NCBI GenBank assembly: GCA_029260055.1
Contig: JAJDDX010000233.1
Coordinates: forward strand, 1 to 40,583
DNA from: Phycisphaerae bacterium
GTDB lineage: Bacteria > Planctomycetota > Phycisphaerae > UBA1845
Direction of reading: 5' to 3'
DNA length: 40,583 nt
The position numbers and the translations under genes were made by a program. The notes below the pieces were generated by a model. That model searched no databases and was not told the DNA's origin. It was given only the letters and a program-made list of their open reading frames with translations. This document shows positions 24,196 to 40,291 of this stretch, in pieces; position 1 is the stretch's first letter; each line of letters begins with the position of its first letter.

Positions 24196-26259
24196 CTATG
24201 GGATGGCAAACCGGACTTCGGCGTAGACCATCCGAGGCACTTCGGCTTCGTTCAGAAAGACCGTCCCGCCTTCCGCGTGCTCGGGGTCGAGCAGGTTCTT
24301 TGCCCCGACGGCGATCGACACCCGGTCGTCCCACAGATCGAGCTCAGCTCGTACGTCGAGCCGGAAGTAGGGGTCGATGTGTCTGGCGAGAAACGGGAAG
24401 GCGGAATTCGGCGCCTCGACGGCATCGACGTACCACAGATAGCTCGAAAGGTGCAAGTCCGGGGTCGGGCTGTAGGTGGCTCCGATCATGGCCTTGTGCT
24501 TCGGCGCCGAGATCGCGTCTTTGTCGAACATCGGCGCTGTGGAATACCAATCGAGCTGCTGGTAGGTGTAGTTCCCCAGCAATGTGAGGTCCCTCGTCAC
24601 GGCGTACTTCAGCTCCAGCTCCGCCCCGTACATCGACGCGCGCGCGCGGTTGTCGAAGTCCATCGTGAGCAGGCCCGGCGGTCCGAGCCTCGGGGTGATG
24701 GTCGTCAGGTCGTCAAACTCGTGCCAGAAGAAGTTCAAGCTGGCATCCAGGCATTCGAACAATCGCCCGCGGTATCCGAGCTCGAACGCCAGCAAGGTCT
24801 CGGGGTTGACGGTGCGATCGCCTTCCACGTAGGTAAGGCCGTTGAGGATCGGAGTCGTGACGAAGCGCAGGCCGGCCGGCGGCATCTGGAAGGCACGCGA
24901 CACCGCTCCGTAGATCACTTCGTGGTCGCTCAGCTCATAGGACAATGCCGCCCGAGCGCTCGGCTGGAATCCACCGTATGCCTCGTAGTCGATCCGGGCG
25001 CCCAGATCGAGGCTCCACCGCTTCGCGAGCTGCCATTGATCCTGCACGTACACACCGACGACGCCGGTGGTGATATAGTCCCTCGAGAGCATGTGAGGAT
25101 CGGAGTTCGTGGCGTCGAGTAGGTCGAGGCGACTGTCGATTCCCCAGGTCAATCGGTGTCCTTCAGCCGGCACGAAGGTCTGACCGAACTGGAAGGCGAT
25201 CTGCTGATAGCGGTAGTCCATGGCGGGCACGCCGGGCGACGTTCCGAAGTCGTTGACGTACGCTGTCAACTCGATGCGGTTGTCCGGCGCTACGTCACGC
25301 GTCCACGTTCCCATCAGGAACGACGCCTGTCCGCCCGAGTTGTGGCTCAGGCCGAGCCCCACCAGCGGCATGGTCGGAAAGCCACCGTCCATCGAGCTGT
25401 GACCGGCTGACAACGTGAAACGGTCCTTCTCTGACGCTTCGTAAACGGCGTGCACGCCGATACGCCCGGCCTTGTACTCGTCATCGAGGCTGCGCAGGAA
25501 CGACCCGCCGGTGCGGAATCCGTCGTTGGCTTCGTACTCGCCGGAGATACGCAGCCGCAGCTTGTCGTCCTTGAAACCGTACCCCACGTACTGATGAAAG
25601 CTGCCCCTCGTGCCGCCGCCGGCGGTCATCGTCAGGCCAAGCTGATCACCCGGGTCCTTGGTAATGATGTTGATCACGCCGTTGACAGCGTTGGCTCCCC
25701 AGATCACGCCGCCGGGTCCGCGGATGACCTCGATGCGGGCGATATCCTCGATCTGGAAGGGCCAGACGCTCCAGACCGTTCCGCCGAAGTGGGAGTCAAA
25801 AAGCTGCCGGCCGTCGACAAGCACGAGAACCTGCCTCACCAGGAAGCCGTGGAACCCGCGTGGCGACACGGCTGATCCGCCCGAAGTGAGTTCGGCGACG
25901 TCAACGCCGACCACGAGCCGCAGGGCATCGGGAATGGTTCTCGCCCCGGCGCGTCGAATGTCCTTGGCGGTAATGACGCTCATGGCGTAAGGCACGGACG
26001 TGAGTTTCTGCTCGCGCCGTCCGGCCGTCACCACCATCGGGACTTCAAGTTCGAGAAGATCGATGTCCTCGAAATCGCCCTCTTCGTCGAGGGCTTCGGT
26101 GTCCGGTTCGTCCTGGGCGGTCGCCGTCGCGGGCAGCGCGGTCCATGCCATCAGGATGAGCCATGGCATGGTCGCGCTCAGAATCGGCACGGCGCCTATT
26201 CCGCAGGCGCGTCGCCACCGCGTTCGCTCCCGCGATCGTTTATGTTGGCTCGTACGCAT
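24196..26259 (-). CDS. TonB-dependent outer-membrane receptor, paralogue 2
   Basis: A 687-residue receptor closely similar along its whole length to the genes on either side. The signal peptide ends near ATA-QD (about 49); an acidic GDFEDIDLLE linker leads to VPMVVTAG (73-80), the TonB-box-like segment; plug and barrel motifs match paralogue 1 (RIEVIRGPGGVIWGANAV, VYVQDQWQLAKRW, SRAFQMPPAGLR). I start at ATG 26259 because GGGGAG lies 6 nt upstream; another ATG at 26265 lies directly after that GGGGAG. The gap to paralogue 3 is 35 bp. Differences among paralogues concentrate in barrel loops, for example after FQMPPAGLR (FVTTPILNGLTYVEGD here), which suggests different ligands or immune/phage escape. 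Ends in FAIP. Confidence 0.92.
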   Translation of the reverse strand: MRTSQHKRSRERTRWRRACGIGAVPILSATMPWLILMAWTALPATATAQDEPDTEALDEEGDFEDIDLLELEVPMVVTAGRREQKLTSVPYAMSVITAKDIRRAGARTIPDALRLVVGVDVAELTSGGSAVSPRGFHGFLVRQVLVLVDGRQLFDSHFGGTVWSVWPFQIEDIARIEVIRGPGGVIWGANAVNGVINIITKDPGDQLGLTMTAGGGTRGSFHQYVGYGFKDDKLRLRISGEYEANDGFRTGGSFLRSLDDEYKAGRIGVHAVYEASEKDRFTLSAGHSSMDGGFPTMPLVGLGLSHNSGGQASFLMGTWTRDVAPDNRIELTAYVNDFGTSPGVPAMDYRYQQIAFQFGQTFVPAEGHRLTWGIDSRLDLLDATNSDPHMLSRDYITTGVVGVYVQDQWQLAKRWSLDLGARIDYEAYGGFQPSARAALSYELSDHEVIYGAVSRAFQMPPAGLRFVTTPILNGLTYVEGDRTVNPETLLAFELGYRGRLFECLDASLNFFWHEFDDLTTITPRLGPPGLLTMDFDNRARASMYGAELELKYAVTRDLTLLGNYTYQQLDWYSTAPMFDKDAISAPKHKAMIGATYSPTPDLHLSSYLWYVDAVEAPNSAFPFLARHIDPYFRLDVRAELDLWDDRVSIAVGAKNLLDPEHAEGGTVFLNEAEVPRMVYAEVRFAIP

Positions 26260-26294
26260 ATTCATCTCCCCACGCGTTCTTGCTCCACGTGGCT

Positions 26295-28391
26295 CTACGG
26301 AATCGCTACTCGCACCTCGGCATAGACCATTCGCGGCACTTCGGCGTCATTGAGAAACAGCGTGCCGCCCTCCGGATGGTCGGGATCGAGGAGATTGCGC
26401 GCTCCTATGGCAATCGAAGCGCGGTCCTTCCAGAATTCACATTCCGCCCTCACGTCGAGCCGCAGGTAGGGATCGATGTGCTTGGCTATGAACGGGAACG
26501 ACGTATTCGGAGCATCCACCGCATCGACGTAATGCAGATAGCCGGAAAGATGCAGGTCTTCGGTCGGGCTGTAGATCGCGCCGATCATTGCCTTGTGCTT
26601 CGGCGGCGAGATGGTATCCCCGTCGTGCAAGGGCACCGACGACTGCCAATCGAACTGTTGGTAGGTGTAGTGCCCCAGCAGCGTCAGATCCTTGGTCACG
26701 GGGTACTTGAGCTCGAGTTCGAGTCCGTACATGGACGGCCGCGCCCGGTTGGCGAAGTCCATTGTGAGCAGGCCCGGCGGTCCGAGCCTCGGGCTGATCG
26801 TGGTGAACCCACCGTATTCGTGCCAAAAGAGGTTCAGGGCTGCGTCGACGCGATCGAACAATCTTCCGCGGTAGCCCAGTTCGTACGCCATCAATGGTGC
26901 GGCGTCGACGTCGATATCGCCTTCGACGACCGCCAACCCGTTGGCCAGCGGTGTCAGGAGGTATCGCAGTCCCGCCGGTGGCATCTGGAAGGCGCGTGAG
27001 ACCGCGCCGTACAGGAACGTGTCGTCGTTGACCTCGTAAGACAAGGCCATTCGGGCACTCGGCTGGAATCCGCCGTAGGCCTCGTAATCGATGCGGGCGC
27101 CCAGATCGAGTGCCCAGCGATCCGCGAACTGCCATTGATCCTGCACGTACAACCCGACGACCCCCGTGGTCACGTAGTCCTTGCTGAGCATGTAAGGGTC
27201 GGCATTGGTGCCGTCGAGCAGATCGAGTCGCGTGTCGATGCCCCATGTCAGGCGGTGTCCGTCAGCCGGCACGCAGGTCTGTCTGAACTGCAGAGCGATC
27301 TGCTGGTAGCGGTAGTCGATGGAGGGCAGCCCCGGGGATGCGGCGAAGTCGTTGGCATAGGCAGTGACCTCGATACGGTTGTCCGGGCTCACGTCCCGCG
27401 TCCAGGTGCCCATGAGGAACGATGCCTGGCTGCCGGCGTTTCGGCTGATACCGATGCCCGCGAGCGGCGTGGTCGGAAAACCACCGTCGACCGATGCGTG
27501 TCCTGCGGAGAGCGTGAACGTGTCTTTCGGCGACGCTTCGTAGATGGCGTGGAGGCCGATGCGCCCGGCCTTGTACTCATCATCCAGGCTTCTGAGGATC
27601 GATCCGCCTTTGTGGAAGCCGTCGTTGGCCTCATATTCGCCGGAGATCCGGAGACGGAGCTTGCCGTCGGTAAAAGCATAGCCCGTGTGCTGGTAGAAGC
27701 TGCCTCGCGACCCGCCGCCGGCGGTCATCGTCAGTCCGAGTTGATCGGCCGGGTCTTTGGTGATGATGTTGATGACGCCGTTGACCGCGTTGGCTCCCCA
27801 GGTCACGCCGCCGGGTCCGCGGATAACCTCGATCCGCGCGATGTCCTCGATCTGGAACGGCCATGAACTCCAGAGCGTTCCACCGAAGTGGGAATCGAAT
27901 ATCTGCCGGCCGTCCACGAGCACGAGGAGTTGCCTGGTGACGAAGCCGTGCGAGCCGCGCGGGGAGACGGCAGAGCCCCCCGATACGATGTCCGCCACGT
28001 CGACACCCGGTACCAGCCGCAGCGCGTCGGTTACCGTTCGCGCGCCGGCGCGCCGAATGTCCTTTGCGGTGATCACGCTCATGGCGTAGGGCACCGTCGT
28101 GAGCTTCTGGGCGTGCCTTCCCGCCGTCACGACGATCGGCACCTCGAGGTCGAGCAGGTCGATGTCCTCGAAGTCTTCCCCGTCGTCGACTTCCTCTATC
28201 GCGTTTTCGCTGGGCGCGGGTGCATCACTGATGGCGTCCTGCGCCGCGGCGACCGCGGTCAGGCCGGTAAGTGCCGGCAGCAGCCACCACAAGGCGATCG
28301 CGTGGCTGTGGAGGCAGTCCGGGCGCACCGGTCGCGACGGTGTCGCGTGGTTCCCAGACAATGTGGAACGAACATGGCGATCAGCCATCAT
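26295..28391 (-). CDS. TonB-dependent outer-membrane receptor, paralogue 3
   Basis: A 698-residue receptor, first of the three in the transcript. Signal peptide with core ALWWLLPALTGLTAVAAA (about 33-50), an acidic EEVDDGEDFEDIDLLD linker, VPIVVTAG (84-91), then plug and barrel like the others. Its start codon overlaps the stop of the binding-protein gene (ATGA at 28388-28391), so translation is probably coupled; the next codon is also ATG (28388) and sits at a better distance from GGAGG. The loop after FQMPPAGLR reads YLLTPLANGLAVVEGD. The barrel contains two Cys (near FRQTCVPADG and in AECEFWKDR) where the paralogues have none at these sites. Ends in VAIP. Ligand unknown. Confidence 0.92.
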   Translation of the reverse strand: MMADRHVRSTLSGNHATPSRPVRPDCLHSHAIALWWLLPALTGLTAVAAAQDAISDAPAPSENAIEEVDDGEDFEDIDLLDLEVPIVVTAGRHAQKLTTVPYAMSVITAKDIRRAGARTVTDALRLVPGVDVADIVSGGSAVSPRGSHGFVTRQLLVLVDGRQIFDSHFGGTLWSSWPFQIEDIARIEVIRGPGGVTWGANAVNGVINIITKDPADQLGLTMTAGGGSRGSFYQHTGYAFTDGKLRLRISGEYEANDGFHKGGSILRSLDDEYKAGRIGLHAIYEASPKDTFTLSAGHASVDGGFPTTPLAGIGISRNAGSQASFLMGTWTRDVSPDNRIEVTAYANDFAASPGLPSIDYRYQQIALQFRQTCVPADGHRLTWGIDTRLDLLDGTNADPYMLSKDYVTTGVVGLYVQDQWQFADRWALDLGARIDYEAYGGFQPSARMALSYEVNDDTFLYGAVSRAFQMPPAGLRYLLTPLANGLAVVEGDIDVDAAPLMAYELGYRGRLFDRVDAALNLFWHEYGGFTTISPRLGPPGLLTMDFANRARPSMYGLELELKYPVTKDLTLLGHYTYQQFDWQSSVPLHDGDTISPPKHKAMIGAIYSPTEDLHLSGYLHYVDAVDAPNTSFPFIAKHIDPYLRLDVRAECEFWKDRASIAIGARNLLDPDHPEGGTLFLNDAEVPRMVYAEVRVAIP

Positions 28392-29380
28392 TCGCCTCCA
28401 TACCTGACCGTGGCCGTACCGAGTTGCCGGTCCGACGGTGTTGCGCCGATCATGCCGGCCGTGTGTTTGTTGAAAGCTCGTCCGACCTGCTCGGGGTACA
28501 CGAGCCCGATGCTTGCCGGATCAGCGCCCTCGATGATCTTTAGAACGATGTCCGCGGTCTGGCGCCCGATCGCTTCGTAGTCCGCGTGTTGACCCGCCAG
28601 AGCGCCGGCCTTGACGAGGTTCTCCGAGAAGGACCAGACGGCCTTCTTCTGCCTGACGCCCCAGAGAAGGACGCGCTGCACGGTGGCCGAGTTGTAGACG
28701 TGGGAGTCGGGAATCATCACGAGGCCCTCGCAGCCGCTGGCGTTGAGCGCTTCGATTGCCTCGGGAATGGTGTCACGGCTCGCCAGGATGGTCGTGCATC
28801 GGAGGTTCTTCGCATCGGCGGCGGCCTTCAGGTCGCCCACCGTCGCCTCGTGGCCTTTGCCGTGGAGGATGGCGATGGACGACAGGCCAGGCCGCGTGGC
28901 GATGGCCCACTCGATGCGCTCGGTCGGTGAGATATCCGACGTGACGCCCGCCACCCGTGATCGATGTTCAAAGTCGTCCGCCGCGAACGAGGCGTCTCTG
29001 GCGTTGGGCACCAGGAAATAGACCACGGGCACGTCCGGGATGACGGCGAGTGCAAACGTCGTAGCCGAGGTGCCGCCTGTCGCGATGGCGGCGGGCTTCA
29101 TGTCGATCAGCCGCTGTCGGACGGCCTCTCGTCCATCCTTGTCCTTGCTCGCGGGCAACTCGATCAGGGTGCATTCAGTACCGTGCTCGCGCAGATGGGT
29201 TTCCAGGGCCTTGGCGGCCGTCTGGTAACTCTGTTTCGCGCGATAGAGGACGGCGATGGGACGGTCGGTGTTCTCGACAGCGCGCGCGGAGGGTGCCACG
29301 CAAGGTTGGACAAGTATCGCGATGACGGCCAACTGCGTCAGGAGGCGGCCGCACACCAATCCTGGCAAACGGTCTGTCAA
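28388..29380 (-). CDS. Periplasmic substrate-binding protein (ABC_sub_bind family), TTG start
   Basis: A 330-residue exported binding protein of the PF04392-type ABC_sub_bind family: signal peptide ending near PSARA-VE (34/35), then PIAVLYRAKQSYQTAAKALE, KPAAIATGGTSATTFAL, VPVVYFLVPNARDAS, VAGVTSDISPTERIEWAI and AVWSFSENLVKAGALAGQHADY, two Rossmann-like lobes with the ligand in the cleft. No permease or ATPase gene is present, so it may serve as a sensor partner or ligand shuttle rather than transport. The only sensible start is TTG 29380: the frame is closed upstream at a TAA without any ATG or GTG, and the next option, GTG 29356, would shorten the leader. A rare start suggests low expression. 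It is the first gene of the receptor operon, overlapping it by 4 bp. Confidence 0.86.
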   Translation of the reverse strand: MTDRLPGLVCGRLLTQLAVIAILVQPCVAPSARAVENTDRPIAVLYRAKQSYQTAAKALETHLREHGTECTLIELPASKDKDGREAVRQRLIDMKPAAIATGGTSATTFALAVIPDVPVVYFLVPNARDASFAADDFEHRSRVAGVTSDISPTERIEWAIATRPGLSSIAILHGKGHEATVGDLKAAADAKNLRCTTILASRDTIPEAIEALNASGCEGLVMIPDSHVYNSATVQRVLLWGVRQKKAVWSFSENLVKAGALAGQHADYEAIGRQTADIVLKIIEGADPASIGLVYPEQVGRAFNKHTAGMIGATPSDRQLGTATVRYGGE

Positions 29381-29709: not shown

Positions 29710-32640
29710 ATGCTCAAGCCGAGAACCTTTGGCCTGCGAGGACGAGCGATCACGCTCTGTATTCTCGTGGTCCTGGGGACCGCCGCCTGCATCTGCGCGG
29801 CGCTGACATGGCGGACCCACGAGTTCGCCATCGAGAACCTCCGCACCCACGCGCTGGTGCACGCCCGTTCGCTCAGCTTCAGCGCGGAGCCGGCCTTGCT
29901 TCTGAACGACAAGCGTGAGTTGGATCATATCGTGGGGACGGCGGTCGCCGACGACACCATACGCCTGGCCTGCATCACGGATGTGTCCGGCGGCATCCTC
30001 GCCGAGTTCGTGCGCGAGGAGGGCACGCCGAGACTTCATTTCCTCAATAAGAAGACGCTCAGGGAGGCGGCGCGCGGCGCCGCGTCCGTGTGCCTCGAAG
30101 ATGACAACCTACGAGTGACCGTGCCCATCTGGCCATATCAGGCGCCGGTGGAACTCGACCTCGATCTGGATGAAGGTGATGCCAAACCGGCGACGGCCGA
30201 CTCGCCGGCCGGGTTCGTGACGGTCGAGCACAGCCTGGATCAACTCCAAACCGAAACCGCGGCATTGGTCGCGTTCGCCATCATGGCCGCGGTTGCCGTC
30301 GTGGCGCTCGGGATTGTCATCACCATCTTCTCAGTTCGCACGCTGCTCAAGCCCGTCGAGAACCTCGTGGACACCACGGCGCAGATTGCGGAGGGAGACC
30401 TCTCCAAGCGTGCGAAAGAGGACGCGGTGGGCGAGATCGGCGTGCTCGCCACGTCTTTCAATCATATGGCGGATCGTCTTGAACGCAGCTACGCATCGAT
30501 CGAGCGCAAGGTCGAGGAGCGCACCGCGGAACTAGATGCCAAGCGCAAGGCACTGCAAGAGGAAGTCGGCGTCAGGCAGAAGGCGGAGCAACAGCTTGAA
30601 GTGGCCCTGGGCGAGGCGGAGAAGCTGGCGGTCGACGCCCAGGAAGCGAGCCGCGCCAAGAGCGAATTCCTGGCCAATATGAGCCACGAATTGAGAACTC
30701 CGATGAACGGCATCATCGGGATGACCGAGCTCTCCCTCGACACGGAACTCAGTCACGAACAGCGTGAGTACCTGACGACCGTCATGGACTGCTCCAACGC
30801 GCTACTCACCCTCCTCAACGATATCCTCGATTTCTCCAAGATCGAAGCGGGAAAGATGGAGGCTGAACGGGCCGAGTTCGATCTCGTGGCCACCGTCGAG
30901 AGCGTCGTCGACTTGCTCGCCAACCGGGCCGTGGCCAAGGGGCTGGAACTCCTGTGCGACATTCAGCCGACAGTGCCGGTGAGACTCATGGGCGACCCGG
31001 TCCGGGTTCGGCAGGTGCTCTTGAACCTGGCCGGCAACGCCTTGAAGTTCACCGAGAAGGGCGAGGTCGTCGTTCGCGTCGAAGTCGAGCGATGTGAACG
31101 AGAACGCGTCACCGTGGTGTGTCTCGTTCACGATACCGGGATGGGCATCCCGGACGATCGCAAGCAGGCCATCTTCGATAGCTTCACGCAAGTAGATGGC
31201 GCTACGACGCGCAGATTCGGCGGAACAGGCCTCGGGTTGACAATATCCAAGCAACTCATCGAGTTGATGGGCGGCGATATCTGGGTCGAAAGCGAACTCG
31301 GACGCGGCAGCACTTTTGGCTTCAGACTCACGTTGGACATCGCCTCCGGCGGCGGCGCCGAGCTCAATAGCGGCGCAGTGCCATTGCCCGACACACGAGA
31401 AATGATCGAGGGCAAGCGGATTCTCATCGTCGACGACAACGCTACCAACCGGCGCATTCTCGAGGATACGCTCGACACATGGCAGTGCATCACGAGATCG
31501 GCGTGCGACGGCCCGTCCGCCCTGGAGGTGCTCGACTCGATCCAGAGGGGACCGTCCCGATTCGATCTGGTCATCCTCGACGTGCAGATGCCGGACATGG
31601 ACGGATTCGAGGTCGAGAAGACCATCCGTGAGCGGTTCGGGTCCGCTTGCCCCGATGTGCTCTTCCTCAGTTCCCTTGGATCGAGGAACGAGGCGTCCTA
31701 CGGAGGCGTGTCGGCTGACAGCGTCTACCTGACAAAGCCGATCAAGCAATCGGTTCTGCTCGATACGCTCGTGACGCTCTTCGCGCCGAGTGTCGAAGCG
31801 GTACCCGAGCCGGTCGTACCCGAACCGGTCGCCACAGGCCAGCCCGAGAATCGCCAGGATGCGATCCGCATTCTGGTCGTGGAGGACAACCCGGTCAACG
31901 CACGCGTCGCGACCGCCATTCTCGGTAAGGCCGGATACGTCGTCACGACGGCGGCCAACGGACGACTCGGGCTCGACGCACTTCAGCACGCTGCATTCGA
32001 TCTCATACTCATGGACCTGCAAATGCCCGAGATGGATGGATTCGAGGCTACCCGCCACATCCGCGCTTCCGGCTCATGGCGGCAATTGCCCGTCGTGGCG
32101 ATGACCGCCCACGCGATGAAGGGCGACCGCGAGCTTTGCCTCAAGGCAGGCATGGATGACTACCTCACCAAGCCCATCAACTCGGAAGAGCTGCTCCAAA
32201 TGGTCGAGACCTGGACCGAGTCCAAGGACGCGTCCAAGGCAACGGTCGCCGACGAGACTGAAACCGCGCAGCCGCCACGACCGCAGGCGACGACCCCTGC
32301 CGCGCCGCAAATGGACATCGAGCAGGCCCTCAGCCAACTCGGTGGTGATGCCGAGTTGTTACAGGAAACACTCGATGCGTTCGTGGAACACCTCCCGCAG
32401 ATACTCGGTGATCTGCAGGCGGCCATCACCGACGGTGATCCGGCGAAGGTTCGTCTCTATGCGCACAGCCTGAAGGGGGCGGCTTCGAACATCTGCGCCG
32501 AGCCGGCGCGGCAAATCGCGCTTCAGCTCGAAGAACTCGGAAAACAGGGCACGCTGAAGACCGCGGACGCGAAATTCGAGGAACTCAAGAAGCAGCTCGG
32601 CCAACTCACGAGCTTCGTTGCGACATTGGAAATTGGGTAG
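29710..32640 (+). CDS. Membrane hybrid sensor histidine kinase with two receivers and Hpt
   Basis: A 976-residue signalling kinase. Order: membrane helix (about 13-33); periplasmic sensor (about 35-180, resembling CHASE8: [20 protein letters not shown]); membrane helix (183-208); HAMP (about 209-262); coiled coil; HisKA with H326 in [11 protein letters not shown]; HATPase with N443 ([10 protein letters not shown]), DTGMGIPDD and GGTGLGL; receiver 1 with D575/D576, phospho-acceptor D624 and K676; receiver 2 with acceptor D769 and K821; Hpt (about 870-970) with H919 in AHSLKGAA. All catalytic residues are present. It should phosphorylate itself and pass phosphate through the receivers to the Hpt and on to another receiver, most plausibly the next gene's. 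GAGGG precedes the ATG by about 8 nt. It is divergent from the binding-protein/receptor operon, whose ligand it may sense. Confidence 0.93.
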
Positions 32641-32649
32641 AGGCGCGGA

Positions 32650-35280
32650 ATGCACGAACAAGTTCGTTTTCTCGTAGTCGACGACAACCCTGCCAGCCGC
32701 AAGGTGCTGACCACACTACTCGAGCAGGCAGGTCATGTCGTGCTGCGCGCCGGAAGCGCCACCGAGTTGATCAAGGCGATCCGTCAGCAGGCTCCGGCTG
32801 CTATCCTGCTGGCAAGCCACTCGATGCGCGAGAATGCCGCGGAGGTGTGCGCCGAGCTTCGGCGGCGACAGGAGACCGCATCGGTCCCCGTGCTTCTTCT
32901 GACCGAAACGTGCGAGCCCGGGTTCGAGCGGCAGGTGTTTTCCGTCGGGGCGACCGACTACGTGCCCATCCCGCTCCGCGCCGACGAGGTGATGGCGCGG
33001 GTGGCGCCGTACGCCGAGTGCTTTCGATTGCGGCAGAGGTCCGGTGACCTCGACGGGCGGGTCGAGGAGCTATCGTCGGAGCTTGCGGTGACGCGCACCA
33101 AACTCTCCGAGATCGCATGGACGGATCCGCTCACCGACCTCCTCAACCGAAAGGCGTGGGAAGAAGAGATCGATCGCGAGCACGCCCGCTTCCTGCGTCA
33201 CGGCCGCCCTTATAGCGTCGTGACCGTGGACGTGGACTGCTTCAAGACATTCAACGCGGCGCGCGGCCACCAAGTGGGTGATGGCTGTTTGCGGAGCATC
33301 GCCGGCGCCATCACCGATTCGTGCCGGCGCGTGGACATCGCCGGGCGCTACGGCGGCGACGAGTTCGTCATCCTGGCGCCCGATACGCGAGCCGACGCGG
33401 CCGCCACGCTCGCGGAGCGAATCCGAAGAGCGGTCTGGGCCCTGAACGTGCCGCACCCGGCGGGCGCGAACACGGGGCGCGTGACGGTCAGCCTGGGAAT
33501 AGCCACCAGCAAGGAAGGACCATGGGAGCGAATCCTTGCGGATGCCGACGATGCGCTATTCGTGGCCAAACGCGCGGGCCGTAACATGGTGTACCATCAG
33601 GAGGGCGCCGCTCGCCAGGTCGTGGCGGAAAGCGAGGTATCCACAACCGATTCAGAGAGTGACGGGCAACGGGAGGCACCCTTCGATCAGATCAGCGTGC
33701 TGGTCGTTGACGATGAACTCACGAACAGGATCGTTTGCAAAGGGTGTCTCGAACGTGCCGGCTACATCGTTCGCCAGGCCGTCGATGGGCAGCTCGCGAT
33801 CGACAGCATCAAGGAAAACGCGCCGGACGTCATCCTGATGGATGTGATGATGCCGAACATGGACGGCCTGACGTGTACGCGCATTCTCAAATCCAATCCC
33901 GACACGAGGGACATCCCGATCATCATCGTCAGCGCTCTGGGCGAGGGCGAGGACATCATGGCGGGGCTCGAGGCGGGGGCGGATGAGTACGTGGTCAAGC
34001 CGATCAGGACCTCCGAACTCACCCTGCGCGTCCGCTCGATGGCTCGCCAATACCATGATCGCAAGCATCTGCTCGCCAGCTTCCAATCGCGCGGCGAGCA
34101 CATGCGGATTCTGGGAAGGCTCGTCGAGTTCTGTCGCGTCGTCGGTACGAGCCGCCGGCTCGATGACGTCTTTGAACAGTCGGTCAGCGCGGTCGCTGAT
34201 GTCGTGCATGCCAGCCGCATTTCGATCATGGTCCCTGAGGGGGACGATCAGCGCCTGCGCATCGTCGGATCGCGCGGCGTCGACGAGGCGATCGTAAAAA
34301 CGGTCGAGGTAGTTCCCGGAGCGCCGATCGCGGGCAAGGTCTTCTCGTCCGGTACACCGATCGTCATCAACTCCGAGGCGGAGCGGGAGCACTTCGACGT
34401 TCCGTTGGACGACGGCTTCTTTGCGAGCGTGCCGCTGCTCTGTACGCCTCTGGGTGCCGCCGGCCGCACTGTCGGCGTGCTCAATGCCACCGAGCGAATC
34501 GATGCGCGTCCCTTCGAGCCCTACGAGCTGGAGTATATCGAGCTGATCGCCAAGGTGGCCGCCACGGCGATCCATGACATCCATGCGCGCGTGGCGCGCG
34601 ACCAGGCATCCGACTCGATCATGGTGGCTCTCGCCAAGCTCGCCGAACACCGAGACAACGACACCGGCTTGCACCTGGACCGTGTGACGCGCTACTGCGA
34701 GATGCTTGCCGAGGAACTCGCCCGCATGGAGCGGTTCCGCGACGAGATTGATGATGTATTCATGAACCATCTCGCTCGGAGCGTTCCGCTTCATGACATT
34801 GGGAAGGTCGCGATCCCCGACCACATTCTGCTTCACCCGGGCAAGCTGACCGATGAACAATTCGACATCATGCGCACGCACGCCGCCATCGGCGCCAGCA
34901 CCATCGAATCGCTGATCGAGCGGACCCCGGGCGTCGATTTCCTGTTCATGGCCGCCGACATCACTCACTATCATCACGAGTGGTTCGACGGGACAGGCTA
35001 CCCCGACCGGCTCGCGGGTGAGTCGATTCCGCTGTCGGCGCGAATCACCGCCGTGGCCGATGTCTACGACGCACTCACCACGAAACGGGTCTACAAAGAC
35101 GCCTTCTCACACGACAAGGCCGTGGCCATCATCGTTGAAGGATCGGGCACGCAATTCGATCCGGTCATCGTCGATGCCTTCGTCAGACGCGAACGAGAGT
35201 TCGGTGAACTCGCCAGAGCCATGGCCGACGACCCGAACCGTAAGAGCGCTACGACCGCCGCCGTCGGCGCGCAGGGCTAA
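32650..35280 (+). CDS. REC-GGDEF-REC-GAF-HD-GYP bifunctional c-di-GMP protein
   Basis: An 876-residue cytosolic protein joining opposing c-di-GMP activities. A receiver-like domain (1-120) has lost its acceptor: A55 stands where Asp should be (ILLASHSM), and the usual Lys near 107 is Ile. The GGDEF diguanylate cyclase (about 155-315) is intact, YGGDEF at 234-239, with the inhibitory I-site RRVD (226-229) exactly five residues before it. Receiver 2 (347-465) is intact: D398 in ILMDVMMPNMDG, K450. A GAF domain spans about 500-645. The HD-GYP phosphodiesterase (about 655-850) has HD at 715-716, HHE at 775-777 and GTGYP at 781-785. Receiver 2 is the likely target of the upstream kinase's Hpt. The gene begins 9 bp after the kinase gene. 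Confidence 0.94.
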   Translation: MHEQVRFLVVDDNPASRKVLTTLLEQAGHVVLRAGSATELIKAIRQQAPAAILLASHSMRENAAEVCAELRRRQETASVPVLLLTETCEPGFERQVFSVGATDYVPIPLRADEVMARVAPYAECFRLRQRSGDLDGRVEELSSELAVTRTKLSEIAWTDPLTDLLNRKAWEEEIDREHARFLRHGRPYSVVTVDVDCFKTFNAARGHQVGDGCLRSIAGAITDSCRRVDIAGRYGGDEFVILAPDTRADAAATLAERIRRAVWALNVPHPAGANTGRVTVSLGIATSKEGPWERILADADDALFVAKRAGRNMVYHQEGAARQVVAESEVSTTDSESDGQREAPFDQISVLVVDDELTNRIVCKGCLERAGYIVRQAVDGQLAIDSIKENAPDVILMDVMMPNMDGLTCTRILKSNPDTRDIPIIIVSALGEGEDIMAGLEAGADEYVVKPIRTSELTLRVRSMARQYHDRKHLLASFQSRGEHMRILGRLVEFCRVVGTSRRLDDVFEQSVSAVADVVHASRISIMVPEGDDQRLRIVGSRGVDEAIVKTVEVVPGAPIAGKVFSSGTPIVINSEAEREHFDVPLDDGFFASVPLLCTPLGAAGRTVGVLNATERIDARPFEPYELEYIELIAKVAATAIHDIHARVARDQASDSIMVALAKLAEHRDNDTGLHLDRVTRYCEMLAEELARMERFRDEIDDVFMNHLARSVPLHDIGKVAIPDHILLHPGKLTDEQFDIMRTHAAIGASTIESLIERTPGVDFLFMAADITHYHHEWFDGTGYPDRLAGESIPLSARITAVADVYDALTTKRVYKDAFSHDKAVAIIVEGSGTQFDPVIVDAFVRREREFGELARAMADDPNRKSATTAAVGAQG

Positions 35281-35467
35281 CGACCGCCCCGCTTCGCTAC
35301 ACAAGCCCGCGACGTGAGCACGCCACCTGGCGCTGCACGTCCTGCCTCGCACGGCTTTTACCCTCCACACTGCTGAAAAAGCAGGCCTTACCGGACGCAC
35401 TACGCTGGGCCGGGGTGATGACCAAGCACCGGTGTCCCTCTGGAACGATGTGGATTGAAGCGCGGAT

Positions 35468-35496
35468 GTTGTCGAAAACAACAGGGAAACCCCTGT
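35468..35496 (+). promoter_or_regulatory. Two adjacent stem-loops upstream of the PilZ gene
   Basis: In the 271-bp gap before the PilZ gene, GTTGT/ACAAC (35468-35472 and 35478-35482, loop CGAAA) and ACAGGG/CCCTGT (35481-35486 and 35491-35496, loop AAAC) form two hairpins sharing two bases, so they may compete or stack. There is no following T-run. The sequence does not match the c-di-GMP riboswitch core that I know. Another small hairpin, CTGCT/AGCAG, lies near 35373. Role unknown. Confidence 0.3.
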
Positions 35497-35551
35497 CGTT
35501 GCGAAGTCCACTCTTGCGGCATGCATCAACGCGGAGAACACCGGAGAGCTC

Positions 35552-36223
35552 ATGAGCGTCGCCCAAGCCATCGATACGATCCGCTCGTCCGAGGAGGATG
35601 TCGCCAAGCTCCTTGACGAACTCGACAGCGCGAGCTGCTGCGAAGCTCGTGACAACCGTCGTGGCGACGTGCGCGTGCCTTATCGAGTGTCGTCGGGTGT
35701 GATGCTCTCAGTGCCCAATGCCCGCGGCTCCGTTGACGACTACCGTGTGGTGCCTCGCAACCTCGGCGGATCGGGAATTGCCGTGCTTCACGGGACCTTC
35801 GTCTACACCAACACGACCTGCGCCGTCAGGCTGAAGAAGATCGACGGATCAGACGCCGTCGTAAAGGCGAGCGTGATGCATTGCAGGAGCGTTCGCGGGC
35901 GAATTCACGAACTAGGGCTGCGCTTCGACGAGCGGATCGACGTGAGTGACTTCGTGAAGGGGCAAGCCGCCGCCGCGCCGGCGACGAAGGCGGAGCCGGT
36001 TCCGACGCCGGAGACGGAGCCGATCACGACTTCGGAGCCGACCGCGACCCCGGACGCGACACCCGCGGAGGAGCCCGCGCCGGACTACAATCCGCACCAC
36101 GTACGCCGCTGCGCCGCCAAGCTGATCAAACTCGCCAATGCCGGCGGGCCGCTTCCGGCACTGCAGGCCATTCTCGAGGAACTCACCCAAGGGCTGCAGG
36201 GCGGCGGCCCAAAGGGCGTCTAG
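35552..36223 (+). CDS. PilZ-domain c-di-GMP-binding protein
   Basis: A 223-residue protein with a PilZ domain (about 33-135). The first c-di-GMP motif is visible as NRRGDVRVPY (35-44, RxxxR type); the second, usually DxSxxG, is present as RNLGGSG, so Asp is replaced by Asn but the spacing holds. A Pro/Thr/Glu-rich linker (150-185) leads to a helical tail (DYNPHHVRRCAAKLIKLANA and on to QAILEELTQGLQ), unknown in function. Start ATG 35552 has GGAG 5 nt upstream. It follows the GGDEF/HD-GYP gene on the same strand after 271 bp, so it is the likely output receptor of this locus, possibly with its own promoter. Confidence 0.85.
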   Translation: MSVAQAIDTIRSSEEDVAKLLDELDSASCCEARDNRRGDVRVPYRVSSGVMLSVPNARGSVDDYRVVPRNLGGSGIAVLHGTFVYTNTTCAVRLKKIDGSDAVVKASVMHCRSVRGRIHELGLRFDERIDVSDFVKGQAAAAPATKAEPVPTPETEPITTSEPTATPDATPAEEPAPDYNPHHVRRCAAKLIKLANAGGPLPALQAILEELTQGLQGGGPKGV

Positions 36224-36245: not shown

Positions 36246-39200
36246 CTACCGGTCGTGGCGGAACTGATCGCGCGGCGTCCACCGCGTGTTGTACTTCAGC
36301 CGCCAGTCGGAGTAGTTGTCGTCATCCATGTCAGCCGGCTCGCCGCTCGGTTCGCCGAACGGCATGGGCTCGATCGTGTCACCGTCCACGACGTTGTGGT
36401 CGGCGTCCTTCTCCAGGCCATACGAATAGAAGAAGAACGTACGCACCATGTCCGGCGGTACGGGCGGGAACTCCTCAGCCGCGAAGCCTAGTGTCAGTCC
36501 GTCACCCGCGTTGACGATCGCTAGTTGCTCGTCGCGCCGGGTCACGAGTTCGAGCACGTCACCGTAACGCGTACACCAGCCCTGAAGCGTCGTGCGCCAC
36601 GGTGGAAGTGGGGACACGGCGTCGAATTCCGGTGTCGTCGGGTGACCCGGCCGACGGAACTTGATCTCCGAGAAGCCGCGATACTGCAGGTCGGCCGTCG
36701 ACGGCAGAGCTTCGTGGACGTGGACCTTGGGCAGCCGCCGGCGCTCGAATAGCGCGATCCGATCCCACCGAAGCTCGAAGGTCGTGGTGAGTCGAAGCCG
36801 CCGCGCCCCCGGCGGCAGCTTCCCGCTCAGATCGCAGACGATGGTCTTGGTCTTGCCGGCGGGCATGCCGACGACGAGGTCGATCGGCTGCCACACATCC
36901 GTCTCAGCCTCGACTTCGAGCAGGGGCGGAATGACGACGGCGGATGAGTTCTGCGACAGAGCGATGTTGCGGCTGGCGTCGCCGTACTGAAGCCAGCCGG
37001 TCATCGCCAAAACATAGGGTCTTGTCGCATCGAGCGGTCCGAAATCCATCGTCAGCGTCAACGGGTAACACTTGCCTCGCAGCGGTGCCGGAAGATTGAC
37101 GCCGGGTGGCGCGAAGACACCGTCGGTGCGCCTGACCGCCTCCGTGCGATCAATGCCGTCGTCGCCCCTGACGCTTGTGGGGCCTATCGGTGCGGCCATC
37201 GCCCATATCTCGGATGGCGGGAATGGCGCCGGCATGAGTTTGTCGGTGGGGTGGACCTCGACGGCTGGGTGATGGTCGACGGCGACGAGCCTCGCCTCAT
37301 CCAGATACAACGCTTCGCGGAACTCCTCCGTGACTGTGAGCAGGTACGTGCCGTCACGCGGAGCAAACGAGTCGCTTTGGCCGATGTGGATCAGCTCGTC
37401 CGGGTCGGCATCGAGCACAACGCCGCGAGCCAGCAGCAGCCCGACCGGCGCGTTGCCCAGGATGTCGGTGACGAAACGGTGCTTGGTCCCGTCCCACGCG
37501 TAGAGGAACGGGCACGAGCCGGTGGCGACGTTCTTCTCGTCGATGGTTAGCGGCTTGCCGTCGAGGGCCACGTTGATCTGATGATCAACCACGCCGTTGG
37601 TCCACAGCGTACGCACGGAGTCGGCGCGTTTCTGCCCGCCGAGTCCGAGTTCGAGCGCTAACCCGGAGACTTCGCGCACCGTGCGGAACGCGCCGGAGCG
37701 AACCTCGACCTCGGTGCCGATGCCCGTCGGGTTGCTCTTGAGTGGCACAAGGCGCACCTTGAGCTGGCCATTGACGTGCGCTCCGTCGTTGCGGAGGTAT
37801 CGCATCGTGCCGCCAGACGTGGTCAGCAGCAGGTCGCTATCGCCGTCGCGGTCGAAGTCCGCCGGCACGATGTCCTTGACGACCGGGACCTGCACTCGAT
37901 CCAACGCCAGCTTCGCCGTGACATCCGTCCATGCGCCACCGCCCGCGTTTCGAAATACCCTGATTGCGCCGCTGTCGGGAATGGTCGGTGTTTCGCCAAA
38001 GGCGAGCACGTCGAGCCAGCCGTCGTTGTCGTAGTCCGTCAGCGCGACCGCCGGAGCTGCGATTTCGGAAAGATCGATCCGTTCGCGGTGGGCTGACCGG
38101 GAGTAGATGATCGACGCACCCTTGTCATCTACGAGTACGGCGTCCGTGAAGCCGTCGTTGTTGATGTCGTCGGTGAGTACGCGACGCGCCGCCGGCCAGG
38201 GCCCCGGCGGTTCGGCCATGGGCTTGAACAGGCCGGCACGCTGGTTCTCGATCACCAACGTCGGCTCGCCGCCGCGCGCCGTGATGATATCGATCGCTAC
38301 GTTGGCATCGAGGTCCGCAATCGCTACATCCGTGGCGGTCGCGGCGTCCGGGATGGCCACTTCGGCGGAGACGTTCGTGAATGTGGCGTTTCCGTTGTTC
38401 TGCCACAGTTCCAGACCGGTCTTGCGGGCAAGAAGCAAGTCGAGATCACCGTCGTGTTCGTAGTCGATCCATCCCGCACGGCGAGCCGATAGGCCCGCGA
38501 GGCCGGCTGGCTCAGTCACATCAGCGAACGTGCTCGCACCGGTGCGCTTCAAGAGGCACAGCCCGTTGGAACCGACCAGAAGCACATCATTGAGCAGATG
38601 CACTTTCGGGTCGTACTTCTTCCCTTCGGGTACGTCGTCATGGAAGTCGCCCACGACGCACGAGGTCGGCTTAAAGCCCTCGGGCAGCCTGATCGAGAGT
38701 GCTTTGCGCTCGAACTTCCCGCCTTTCGACAGCGACATGATCGATAGCACGCCGGTATCGTCTGCCGCGAGTAAGCTGTAACCGCCGTCTTCGGTCACTT
38801 CGACGATACCGGTGACGGTCGCCCGGCGATCCGCCTCGGACGCAAACACATCATCGGTCGCGTCGACGAAGCGTACGTCGATCGCCTGCGGGCGGGCGGG
38901 CTTGATGCCGGCGGCATCCGACGGCACTTCCGCCACCGTATAGATGCACACTTCGAGCGCTTCGGTCGAACGGCTTTCATCGCCGAAGAGCTTTCGCAGA
39001 CGCATGAACTCTCGATGTCGCTTCTGGAATTCCTTCTTGTCACCGGCCTTGCGGGCATAGGTCCCGAGCTTGTAGTGAGCACTCGCGTGGAACGGATCGA
39101 GCCGCACCGTTTCCGTAAGCTGTTCGATGGCCTTGTCGTCTTTCCCGCTCGCCTGATAGGCACCGGCAAGCTGGAATCGCAACGTCGCGGTTTCCGGATC

Positions 39201-39587
39201 GCCGCGCACAGCCTTCTCGAGAGGGGCGATCGCCTCTTCGAACTTCGAGAGGCGCACATGGGCAAGCCCCGTCAGGTAAGCGGTCGCGACGGCATCCGGT
39301 TCGACGGCGCGCGCCCTGGCAAGTGTGTCGATGACCCCATCGTGCGCGCGGGCCAAAAGCTGCGCGCGTGCCAGGTTCCGCAGGGCGGAAGGCGACTTCG
39401 GACGGAGCCTCACCGCGGCGTCGAAGGCCTCGACGGCCTTGGCTGACTCGCGGTTCTCCAGGTGTGCCTTGCCGACGTTCATCCGGCGGGCGAACTCCTC
39501 CGCATCGTCCGCGCGCACCGGTGCGGCAATCAGCAGGGCTAATGTCAAACTCGACCCGAGAACGTGAATCCATGCGGTGCCGCGCAT
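36246..39587 (-). CDS. Secreted TPR / FG-GAP / UnbV (ASPIC) protein, 1113 aa
   Basis: A large exported protein. Signal peptide (VLGSSLTLALLIAAPVRA, about 9-26), then TPR repeats (about 30-200: AVEAFDAAVRLRPKSPSALR, LEKAVRGDPETATLRFQLAG, LTETVRLDPFHASAHYKLG), then FG-GAP/VCBS-type repeats with Ca-binding-like loops (GWIDYEHDGDLDLLLARK, DINNDGFTDAVLVDD, DYDNDGWLDVLAFG, DFDRDGDSDLLLTT), then an UnbV/ASPIC module (about 605-676, ending TLWTNGVVDHQINV). The last 430 residues are not recognised. Start ATG 39587 is fixed by GGAGG 7 nt upstream; the longer frame adds an unlikely Arg-rich leader. TPR-FG-GAP-UnbV proteins are common and uncharacterised in planctomycetes; a cell-surface scaffold or binding role is likely. 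Confidence 0.88.
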   Translation of the reverse strand: MRGTAWIHVLGSSLTLALLIAAPVRADDAEEFARRMNVGKAHLENRESAKAVEAFDAAVRLRPKSPSALRNLARAQLLARAHDGVIDTLARARAVEPDAVATAYLTGLAHVRLSKFEEAIAPLEKAVRGDPETATLRFQLAGAYQASGKDDKAIEQLTETVRLDPFHASAHYKLGTYARKAGDKKEFQKRHREFMRLRKLFGDESRSTEALEVCIYTVAEVPSDAAGIKPARPQAIDVRFVDATDDVFASEADRRATVTGIVEVTEDGGYSLLAADDTGVLSIMSLSKGGKFERKALSIRLPEGFKPTSCVVGDFHDDVPEGKKYDPKVHLLNDVLLVGSNGLCLLKRTGASTFADVTEPAGLAGLSARRAGWIDYEHDGDLDLLLARKTGLELWQNNGNATFTNVSAEVAIPDAATATDVAIADLDANVAIDIITARGGEPTLVIENQRAGLFKPMAEPPGPWPAARRVLTDDINNDGFTDAVLVDDKGASIIYSRSAHRERIDLSEIAAPAVALTDYDNDGWLDVLAFGETPTIPDSGAIRVFRNAGGGAWTDVTAKLALDRVQVPVVKDIVPADFDRDGDSDLLLTTSGGTMRYLRNDGAHVNGQLKVRLVPLKSNPTGIGTEVEVRSGAFRTVREVSGLALELGLGGQKRADSVRTLWTNGVVDHQINVALDGKPLTIDEKNVATGSCPFLYAWDGTKHRFVTDILGNAPVGLLLARGVVLDADPDELIHIGQSDSFAPRDGTYLLTVTEEFREALYLDEARLVAVDHHPAVEVHPTDKLMPAPFPPSEIWAMAAPIGPTSVRGDDGIDRTEAVRRTDGVFAPPGVNLPAPLRGKCYPLTLTMDFGPLDATRPYVLAMTGWLQYGDASRNIALSQNSSAVVIPPLLEVEAETDVWQPIDLVVGMPAGKTKTIVCDLSGKLPPGARRLRLTTTFELRWDRIALFERRRLPKVHVHEALPSTADLQYRGFSEIKFRRPGHPTTPEFDAVSPLPPWRTTLQGWCTRYGDVLELVTRRDEQLAIVNAGDGLTLGFAAEEFPPVPPDMVRTFFFYSYGLEKDADHNVVDGDTIEPMPFGEPSGEPADMDDDNYSDWRLKYNTRWTPRDQFRHDR

Positions 39588-39733
39588 TGAGTACCTCCGT
39601 GACGAACGGACACACTTGCGAACCAGTGCGCACATGGTACAGGGCATCGCGGCCGGGGCCAAAGCGCGGCAAAGCGGGTGTCGCGAGCGAAGAGAGGGGG
39701 AAGCCGTTCGCCGGATTCGAATCAAGAACGAGC

Positions 39734-40291
39734 TTACGAGCCGCCGGCGGCAGCTCGCTTGAAGCGAATCGTCTCGGTCGCCTTCTTTCCATCCTTCTCT
39801 TGCTGGAACACCACTTCGAGTGAGTCGGAGTTCGTGGAGCGGTAGATGTAATCCCACGGCTTGTCGCCGACGAACCGAAACACGGCTTCCCGGTCGCCGC
39901 GGCTGACAAGCCGGAAGGTCAGGGACTCGTCCTTCTCTTCCCAGCCGACCAGCTTGCGGTCGAAGTGTTTGAAGCGGAAGGTTATCCCGTCGGCGTCTTC
40001 GACAATCGTCAGCAGCTCGTACATCCAGACCTTACCGCCCTTGATCCAGCGGAACATACCCATCATGCAGTCGCCGGACGGCGCGCTCCAAACCTCCTCG
40101 AGGCGATCGCCATCCGACTCGCCCACCCATCGGCCTTGCATCCATGCCAGGTCGGCGACCTTCACGCGCGGCGCATCTTGCGTACCGGTTGCCTTGTCAT
40201 CGCCGCCGGGAACACTAGCGCAGAAGGCCAGTACGAGAAGTGCCACCACGAGCATCGGAGCCATTGATCGTACGTTCGTGCTGATCGACAT
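39734..40291 (-). CDS. Secreted DUF6265-like protein
   Basis: A 185-residue protein with a signal peptide (hydrophobic core MAPMLVVALLVLAFCASV, about 10-27) and a single beta-rich domain: DLAWMQGRWVGESDGDRLEE (47-66), then EVWSAPSGDCMMGMFRWIKG, ending QQEKDGKKATETIRFKRA. This matches the lipocalin-like DUF6265 pattern, in which a WMxGxW start and an EVWS segment are conserved. Function unknown; a small secreted ligand-binding protein is likely. GGAG lies about 8 nt before ATG 40291. It precedes the large UnbV protein on the same strand by 146 bp, so they may share a transcript. Confidence 0.8.
   Translation of the reverse strand: MSISTNVRSMAPMLVVALLVLAFCASVPGGDDKATGTQDAPRVKVADLAWMQGRWVGESDGDRLEEVWSAPSGDCMMGMFRWIKGGKVWMYELLTIVEDADGITFRFKHFDRKLVGWEEKDESLTFRLVSRGDREAVFRFVGDKPWDYIYRSTNSDSLEVVFQQEKDGKKATETIRFKRAAAGGS

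Follow-up and report, generated by a model that had tools for sequence, protein, structure and literature searches.

REC-GGDEF response regulators such as WspR and DgcR form a separate known class. In these cyclases a receiver is joined by a heptad-phased coiled-coil linker to a GGDEF domain with an RxxD I-site. Phosphodiesterases with HD-GYP domains of known structure include PA4781 (4r8z) and the protein 4mcw. According to a 2025 review (PMC12632262), PleD consists of a receiver, a pseudo-receiver, and a cyclase, and a pseudo-receiver is a receiver fold that lacks at least one of the five active-site residues. The protein analyzed here combines all of these elements in a single chain with the order REC1-GGDEF-REC2-GAF-HD-GYP. 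A search of titles and the beginnings of abstracts found no study of this architecture, which is no proof of absence.

The protein is encoded in the window, the whole stretch of 40,583 nucleotides that was analyzed, which belongs to a 7.6 Mb draft genome assembly of 500 contigs. Its nearest named relatives are Phycisphaerae and Planctomycetota bins. In the protein of 876 residues, Pfam identifies two Response_reg stretches and GGDEF (156-312), GAF (about 502-642), and HD/HD_5 (about 675-839) domains, each above the cut-off. The features of the locus are:

29710..32640, forward strand: hybrid histidine kinase, HAMP-HisKA-HATPase-REC-REC-Hpt, 976 residues, probable phosphate donor (Pfam)
32650..35280, forward strand: REC1-GGDEF-REC2-GAF-HD-GYP protein, 876 amino acids (open reading frame, ATG start, Pfam)
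32662..33009, forward strand: REC1, pseudo-receiver with A55 and I107, residues 5-120 (Pfam, alignment; AlphaFold2 predicts receiver-like secondary structure)
32812..32814, forward strand: Ala55 codon GCA, replacing the phospho-acceptor Asp (sequence, alignment)
33010..33114, forward strand: helix linking REC1 and GGDEF, residues 121-155, of conserved heptad length and with two core positions near REC1 lost (alignment, AlphaFold2)
33115..33591, forward strand: GGDEF domain, residues 156-314, RxxD I-site at 226-229 (Pfam, alignment)
33688..34044, forward strand: REC2, canonical, D398 and K450, residues 347-465 (Pfam, alignment)
34150..34584, forward strand: GAF domain, residues 501-645 (Pfam)
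34585..35199, forward strand: HD-GYP domain, residues 646-850, catalytic residues intact (Pfam, alignment)
35552..36223, forward strand: PilZ-like protein that may be a c-di-GMP effector (Pfam 21.5 bits against a cut-off of 22.5; six-frame search, 23.0 bits)

The original prediction placed Ala55 in the position of the phospho-acceptor Asp of the first receiver, which was also said to lack the conserved Lys, assigned D398 and K450 to the second receiver, and described the GGDEF, I-site, and HD-GYP motifs as intact in one chain. The alignment bears out each of these observations, and the coordinates and residue numbers given with them are correct. The five active-site positions of REC1 (11, 12, 55, 85, and 107) are occupied by D, D, A, T, and I, and with two of the five residues missing the domain is a pseudo-receiver. 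The corresponding positions of REC2 (354, 355, 398, 428, and 450) hold the canonical D, D, D, S, and K. The cyclase residues are present (GGDEF at 235-239, I-site R226xxD229, D194, N202, and D211), as are all eight of the HD-GYP octet (H675, H715, D716, K719, H744, H775, H776, and D804). These GGDEF, I-site, and HD-GYP positions are the catalytic or binding ones of their families. Both enzyme domains look catalytically complete, and their activity is predicted from sequence. Position 203, beside N202, carries Ala; of the 58 relatives in which it is visible, 55 have Asp.

The REC1-GGDEF part shares with WspR and DgcR the receiver, the heptad-phased linker, and the RxxD I-site, and its best Foldseek matches are 3bre (PA3702, presumably WspR) and 3i5a (WspR). 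It differs from them in lacking the Asp and Lys of a phosphorylatable receiver, and in its attachment to a second response regulator. PleD, the best PDB sequence match, also has a pseudo-receiver directly before GGDEF; however, its active receiver precedes the pseudo-receiver, whereas in the window protein the active receiver follows the cyclase and precedes GAF-HD-GYP. The remainder of the chain has the canonical receiver quintet and the HD-GYP metal-binding and catalytic residues of a REC-GAF-HD-GYP phosphodiesterase, and hydrolysis is predicted for it. The structure 4r8z matches residues 651-861 and 4mcw matches residues 489-860, GAF included, but the HD-GYP domain of the window protein, unlike those of known structure, sits behind a REC-GGDEF unit.

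Searches with E cut-offs of 1e-60 (60 relatives), 1e-140 (51 family genomes), and 1e-150 (114 order genomes) yielded 65 relatives that align over 480 residues or more. Because of these cut-offs, and because only the best candidates per genome and part of the matches were taken, the set is a sample drawn from the nearer relatives. Four rows that hold REC-GAF-HD-GYP as a separate frame were excluded. The alignment has 61 rows, including the window protein and some incomplete sequences, and the tree has 60 (L044 was left out). Both receiver sites are visible in 55 rows (54 without the window), and all five domains are complete in 51.

Among the 54 relatives with both receiver sites visible, 48 retain Asp55; L128, the REC1 of which aligns poorly, is counted with these. 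The residue has been lost in the window protein (A), in L158, L022, and L164 (A), and in L124 (N), L036 (G), and L034 (G). On a tree from which both receivers were excluded, these losses take five changes or more. Both receivers are canonical in L157 and L180, the two nearest full-length relatives. The A55 substitution is therefore a private loss. It is not fixed among the relatives. The original prediction had proposed such an alignment as its check and had named Asp at position 55 in orthologues as a result that would refute it, and this is the result obtained. The other A55 sequences form a paralogous clade and are not the source of the window's A55, since L164 shares genome G064 with L157. 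Ile107 does not occur in any of the relatives, and the D55A/K107I combination is specific to the window sequence. Several neighboring residues have changed as well (LLASHSM in the window protein and LLDIMMP in L157), so that a single base error does not explain A55. The Asp of REC2 is lost in 12 of the 61 rows. Judged by the full quintets in 55 rows, both receivers are canonical in 30, REC1 only in 12, REC2 only in five, including the window protein, and neither in eight.

The clade of L158 (3137-5881), L022 (862-3609), and L164 (3112-5883) belongs to one genus and has GGGEF or GGGEV in place of GGDEF together with A55 in REC1. In these proteins the cyclase arm appears to be dead and the phosphodiesterase to remain, and no kinase adjoins the gene in L158 and L164, which have enough upstream sequence. 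Nine group B relatives (L166, L118, L029, L120, L121, L122, L185, L167, and L125) have approximately 300 additional N-terminal residues before REC1 and an I-site of the form RxxE instead of RxxD. The close relative from G007 is incomplete at a contig start, and its missing REC1 was sought but not recognized. The contig end L139, from the genome of L043 (G060), carries a kinase gene as well as the first part of a gene for a receiver protein, whose site VDVALL keeps the Asp; this contig end is probably the missing part of L043 and is not in the counts. Among the best 5000 records of a plasmid search, none covered 80% of the protein.

Relative-rate tests compared window-only with sister-only changes, using two sisters and three outgroups and thus six choices. 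With L157 as sister and L132 as outgroup, the counts are 34 and 5 in REC1 (p = 2.4e-6), 11 and 1 in the linker (p = 0.006), 27 and 14 in GGDEF (p = 0.06), 13 and 7 in REC2, 21 and 11 in GAF, and 11 and 12 in HD-GYP. Across the six choices, the difference is significant at 0.05 in all six for REC1, four for the linker, three for GGDEF (p from 0.02 to 0.15), one for GAF, and none for REC2 or HD-GYP. This pattern is consistent with constraint that has been relaxed or altered in REC1 and its exit helix and, to a lesser degree, in GGDEF. The excess in REC1 could also reflect adaptive change instead of relaxation.

Of 59 rows, 58 retain every residue of the HD-GYP octet and 54 retain all of the GGDEF residues. 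Catalytic residues of GGDEF have been lost in 5 of 13 rows with a non-canonical REC1 and in 0 of 42 others (Fisher p = 3.7e-4, uncorrected for descent), and the association goes back to two or three origins: L040, and L136 and a clade of three, which are not separated from each other. The original prediction held that synthesis and breakdown must be switched, but this need not be so, as these two or three lineages lost GGDEF catalytic residues instead. In group A, to which the window belongs, the window protein is the only one of six non-canonical-REC1 rows with an intact GGDEF motif. However, all seven such rows in group B keep the motif, which argues against a general rule of joint loss. Independent tree pairs for erosion of REC1 and GGDEF number three, too few for a test, and an erosion index places the window protein among those with an eroded GGDEF domain solely because it counts GGDEF instead of GGEEF as a deviation.

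The length of the linker changes in steps of seven among 1991 REC-GGDEF sequences, as reported in PMC8041772. In 56 rows the linker was measured from the proline of the KP motif to the aspartate of DxLT: 55 have 31, 38, 45, 52, or 59 residues, and one has 60. The window linker of 52 residues is in phase with 55 of the 56 rows, itself included. Its GGDEF-proximal core is hydrophobic (V138, L145, and L152), whereas the REC1-proximal core positions are Cys124 and Ser131, which are Leu in 24 and 27 of 36 relatives with the same linker length. Position 120 is Pro in the window protein and hydrophobic in 35 of these 36. AlphaFold2 predicts an unbroken helix of residues 111-157 in both the window protein and the control L157, with mean pLDDT for residues 131-150 of 71-72 and 83-87, respectively. 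The model thus provides no evidence for a break in coupling, and the idea of a signaling helix broken at P120, G132, or G136 is weakened. The unbroken helix may, however, be imposed by the alignment used as AlphaFold2 input.

The kinase gene ends nine bases before the ATG of the enzyme gene, and its phospho-site residues are present in the alignment. The best NCBIfam model for it is BarA, with 564.8 bits, below the equivalog cut-off of 890, and the two share only the same kinds of domain. Among rows with at least 1000 nucleotides upstream, a homologous kinase lies directly before the enzyme gene in 20 of 29 in group A, including the window, and in 3 of 20 in group B, while 9 and 17 rows, respectively, are without one. 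The Hpt histidine is kept in 19 of the 21 adjacent kinases compared, including that of the window, but not in L184 and L031; L044 and L138 are one contig in this comparison. Judging from the neighborhood, the hybrid kinase with its Hpt is likely the phosphate donor to REC2.

The PilZ-like protein starts 271 bases after the enzyme gene and contains a stretch rich in alanine, proline, and glutamate. Neither a terminator nor a sigma-70 consensus was found in 35200-35620. A conserved operon of kinase, enzyme, and PilZ effector is rejected on the basis of the phmmer search (E up to 1e-3), which found no homologue of the PilZ-like protein next to the enzyme gene in any of the 45 other rows that have 1500 nucleotides or more downstream, although a strongly diverged PilZ gene could escape it. 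On the reverse strand, two adjoining TonB-dependent receptors (24196-28391) are followed by an ABC_sub_bind protein (28388-29380), which is divergent from the hybrid kinase and a possible sensor partner. A large protein with TPR and FG-GAP repeats (36246-39857, reverse strand; ASPIC/UnbV only below cut-off) is convergent with the PilZ-like gene. Two further loci of the window's genome, L193 (G000:C484:26558-27667) and L194 (G000:C20:8614-9714), are single frames of 571 and 1144 codons that combine GGDEF and HD-GYP. The genome as a whole has 17 GGDEF, 14 HD_5, and 18 PilZ matches, so the cell could be buffered against losing a single cyclase input.

REC-GAF-HD-GYP also occurs as a separate frame, 535-700 codons long, in at least 41 rows among the matches listed; one of these frames has an in-frame stop, and two are present in the window's own genome. 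Of the five that were read, four begin at the receiver within their contig; the fifth, L006, starts at a contig edge, which leaves its true start unsure. Since such frames stand alone, as do the REC-GGDEF regulators WspR and DgcR, the gene appears to be two response regulators fused into one. A REC-GGDEF cyclase of the WspR/DgcR type and a REC-GAF-HD-GYP phosphodiesterase, each with its own receiver, would have been joined and served by the upstream hybrid kinase. The Hpt of the kinase would pass phosphate to D398 of REC2, which together with GAF would set the activity of HD-GYP. The ancestral REC1 would also have been phosphorylated and would have driven the GGDEF dimer as described for DgcR, through a shift in the register of the coiled coil. 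In the window lineage, loss of the REC1 input would have taken the cyclase arm off kinase control, and this arm may now be either basally active and limited by the I-site, or in early decay. The retained GGDEF motif, I-site, and linker length indicate that the cyclase may still be under selection and controlled in another way. This account as a whole, comprising fusion, control by the upstream kinase, and lineage-specific loss of the cyclase input, is drawn from sequence comparisons, and we consider it somewhat more probable than its negation.

It is possible, but doubtful, that REC1 is instead locked in an active-like state by an aliphatic residue at K+2 and the remodeled exit helix, with the cyclase constitutive under I-site feedback and the kinase and REC2 controlling hydrolysis only. 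An aliphatic K+2 is the activating direction in CheY, and bacterial pseudo-receivers, including REC1 of ShkA, resemble the window REC1 in lacking key residues and in this position, according to PMC12632262. They differ from it in that the window loss is private in a mostly canonical family and the window REC1 has no known ligand. Six of the seven Asp55-lost rows and 18 of the 48 others have an aliphatic K+2 in REC1 (Fisher p = 0.035). A link between this residue and Asp55 loss is not significant on independent pairs and is unseen in REC2 (8 of 12 and 36 of 49). Should the cyclase be constitutive, one polypeptide would combine a self-limiting source with a kinase-gated sink and set a local c-di-GMP pulse.

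The original prediction was right in its observations, but the interpretation it placed on them is mostly unsupported. It proposed a single switch, in which the phosphorylated central REC2, with GAF, toggles both enzymes while REC1 holds the dimer without phosphate. REC2 does lie between the two enzymes as the only canonical receiver, the linker keeps the coiled-coil phase, and REC1 has Leu at K+2 instead of the Phe of L157, L180, and L132, a substitution that PMC12632262 links to active-like conformations of CheY. However, 30 of 55 rows have one canonical receiver per enzyme, REC-GAF-HD-GYP occurs alone, and the fastest-changing part is REC1. The single switch is therefore less economical than two fused regulators, and we regard it as unlikely. 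Phosphate-independent dimerization through REC1 agrees with the heptad phase and the Leu at K+2, but not with the rapid change of REC1 and the two lost core positions of the linker.

Similarly unlikely is an adaptor role like that in PleD, in which the pseudo-receiver REC1 would bind phosphorylated REC2, so that REC2 phosphate would drive dimerization of GGDEF. In the NCBIfam comparison, residues 3-317 match positions 154-455 of the PleD model (457 positions), which we take to be the second receiver of PleD and GGDEF. Nevertheless, the score of 283.6 bits is below the cut-off of 474, and the active receiver comes after the cyclase, not before it. In the AlphaFold2 monomer, residues 319-345 are of low confidence, the pTM is 0.42, and no REC1-REC2 contact is defined.

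We consider it improbable that REC1 has acquired a new input, binding a ligand or partner to gate the cyclase, as the pseudo-receiver of ShkA does with c-di-GMP. Ligand-binding pseudo-receivers, one of which binds c-di-GMP, are described in PMC7010744 and PMC12632262, the receiver-like secondary structure is retained in the model, and the rapid change fits adaptation as well as relaxation. Opposed to this, no binding residues were identified, and the D55A/K107I combination is confined to one sequence. Neutral change or an assembly error without functional effect is very improbable, since, even in a 500-contig draft with no second copy of the sequence seen, the frame is intact, similarity is full-length, many adjacent residues and the Lys have changed, and the other domains are normal.

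A cyclase and a hydrolase in one chain invite the reading of a single two-way switch. The gene looks instead like the product of ordinary domain-by-domain change, not a new kind of switch. The receivers, eroding separately among the relatives, provide a natural series for asking whether each enzyme has one receiver of its own, and what becomes of a cyclase after the loss of its switch.
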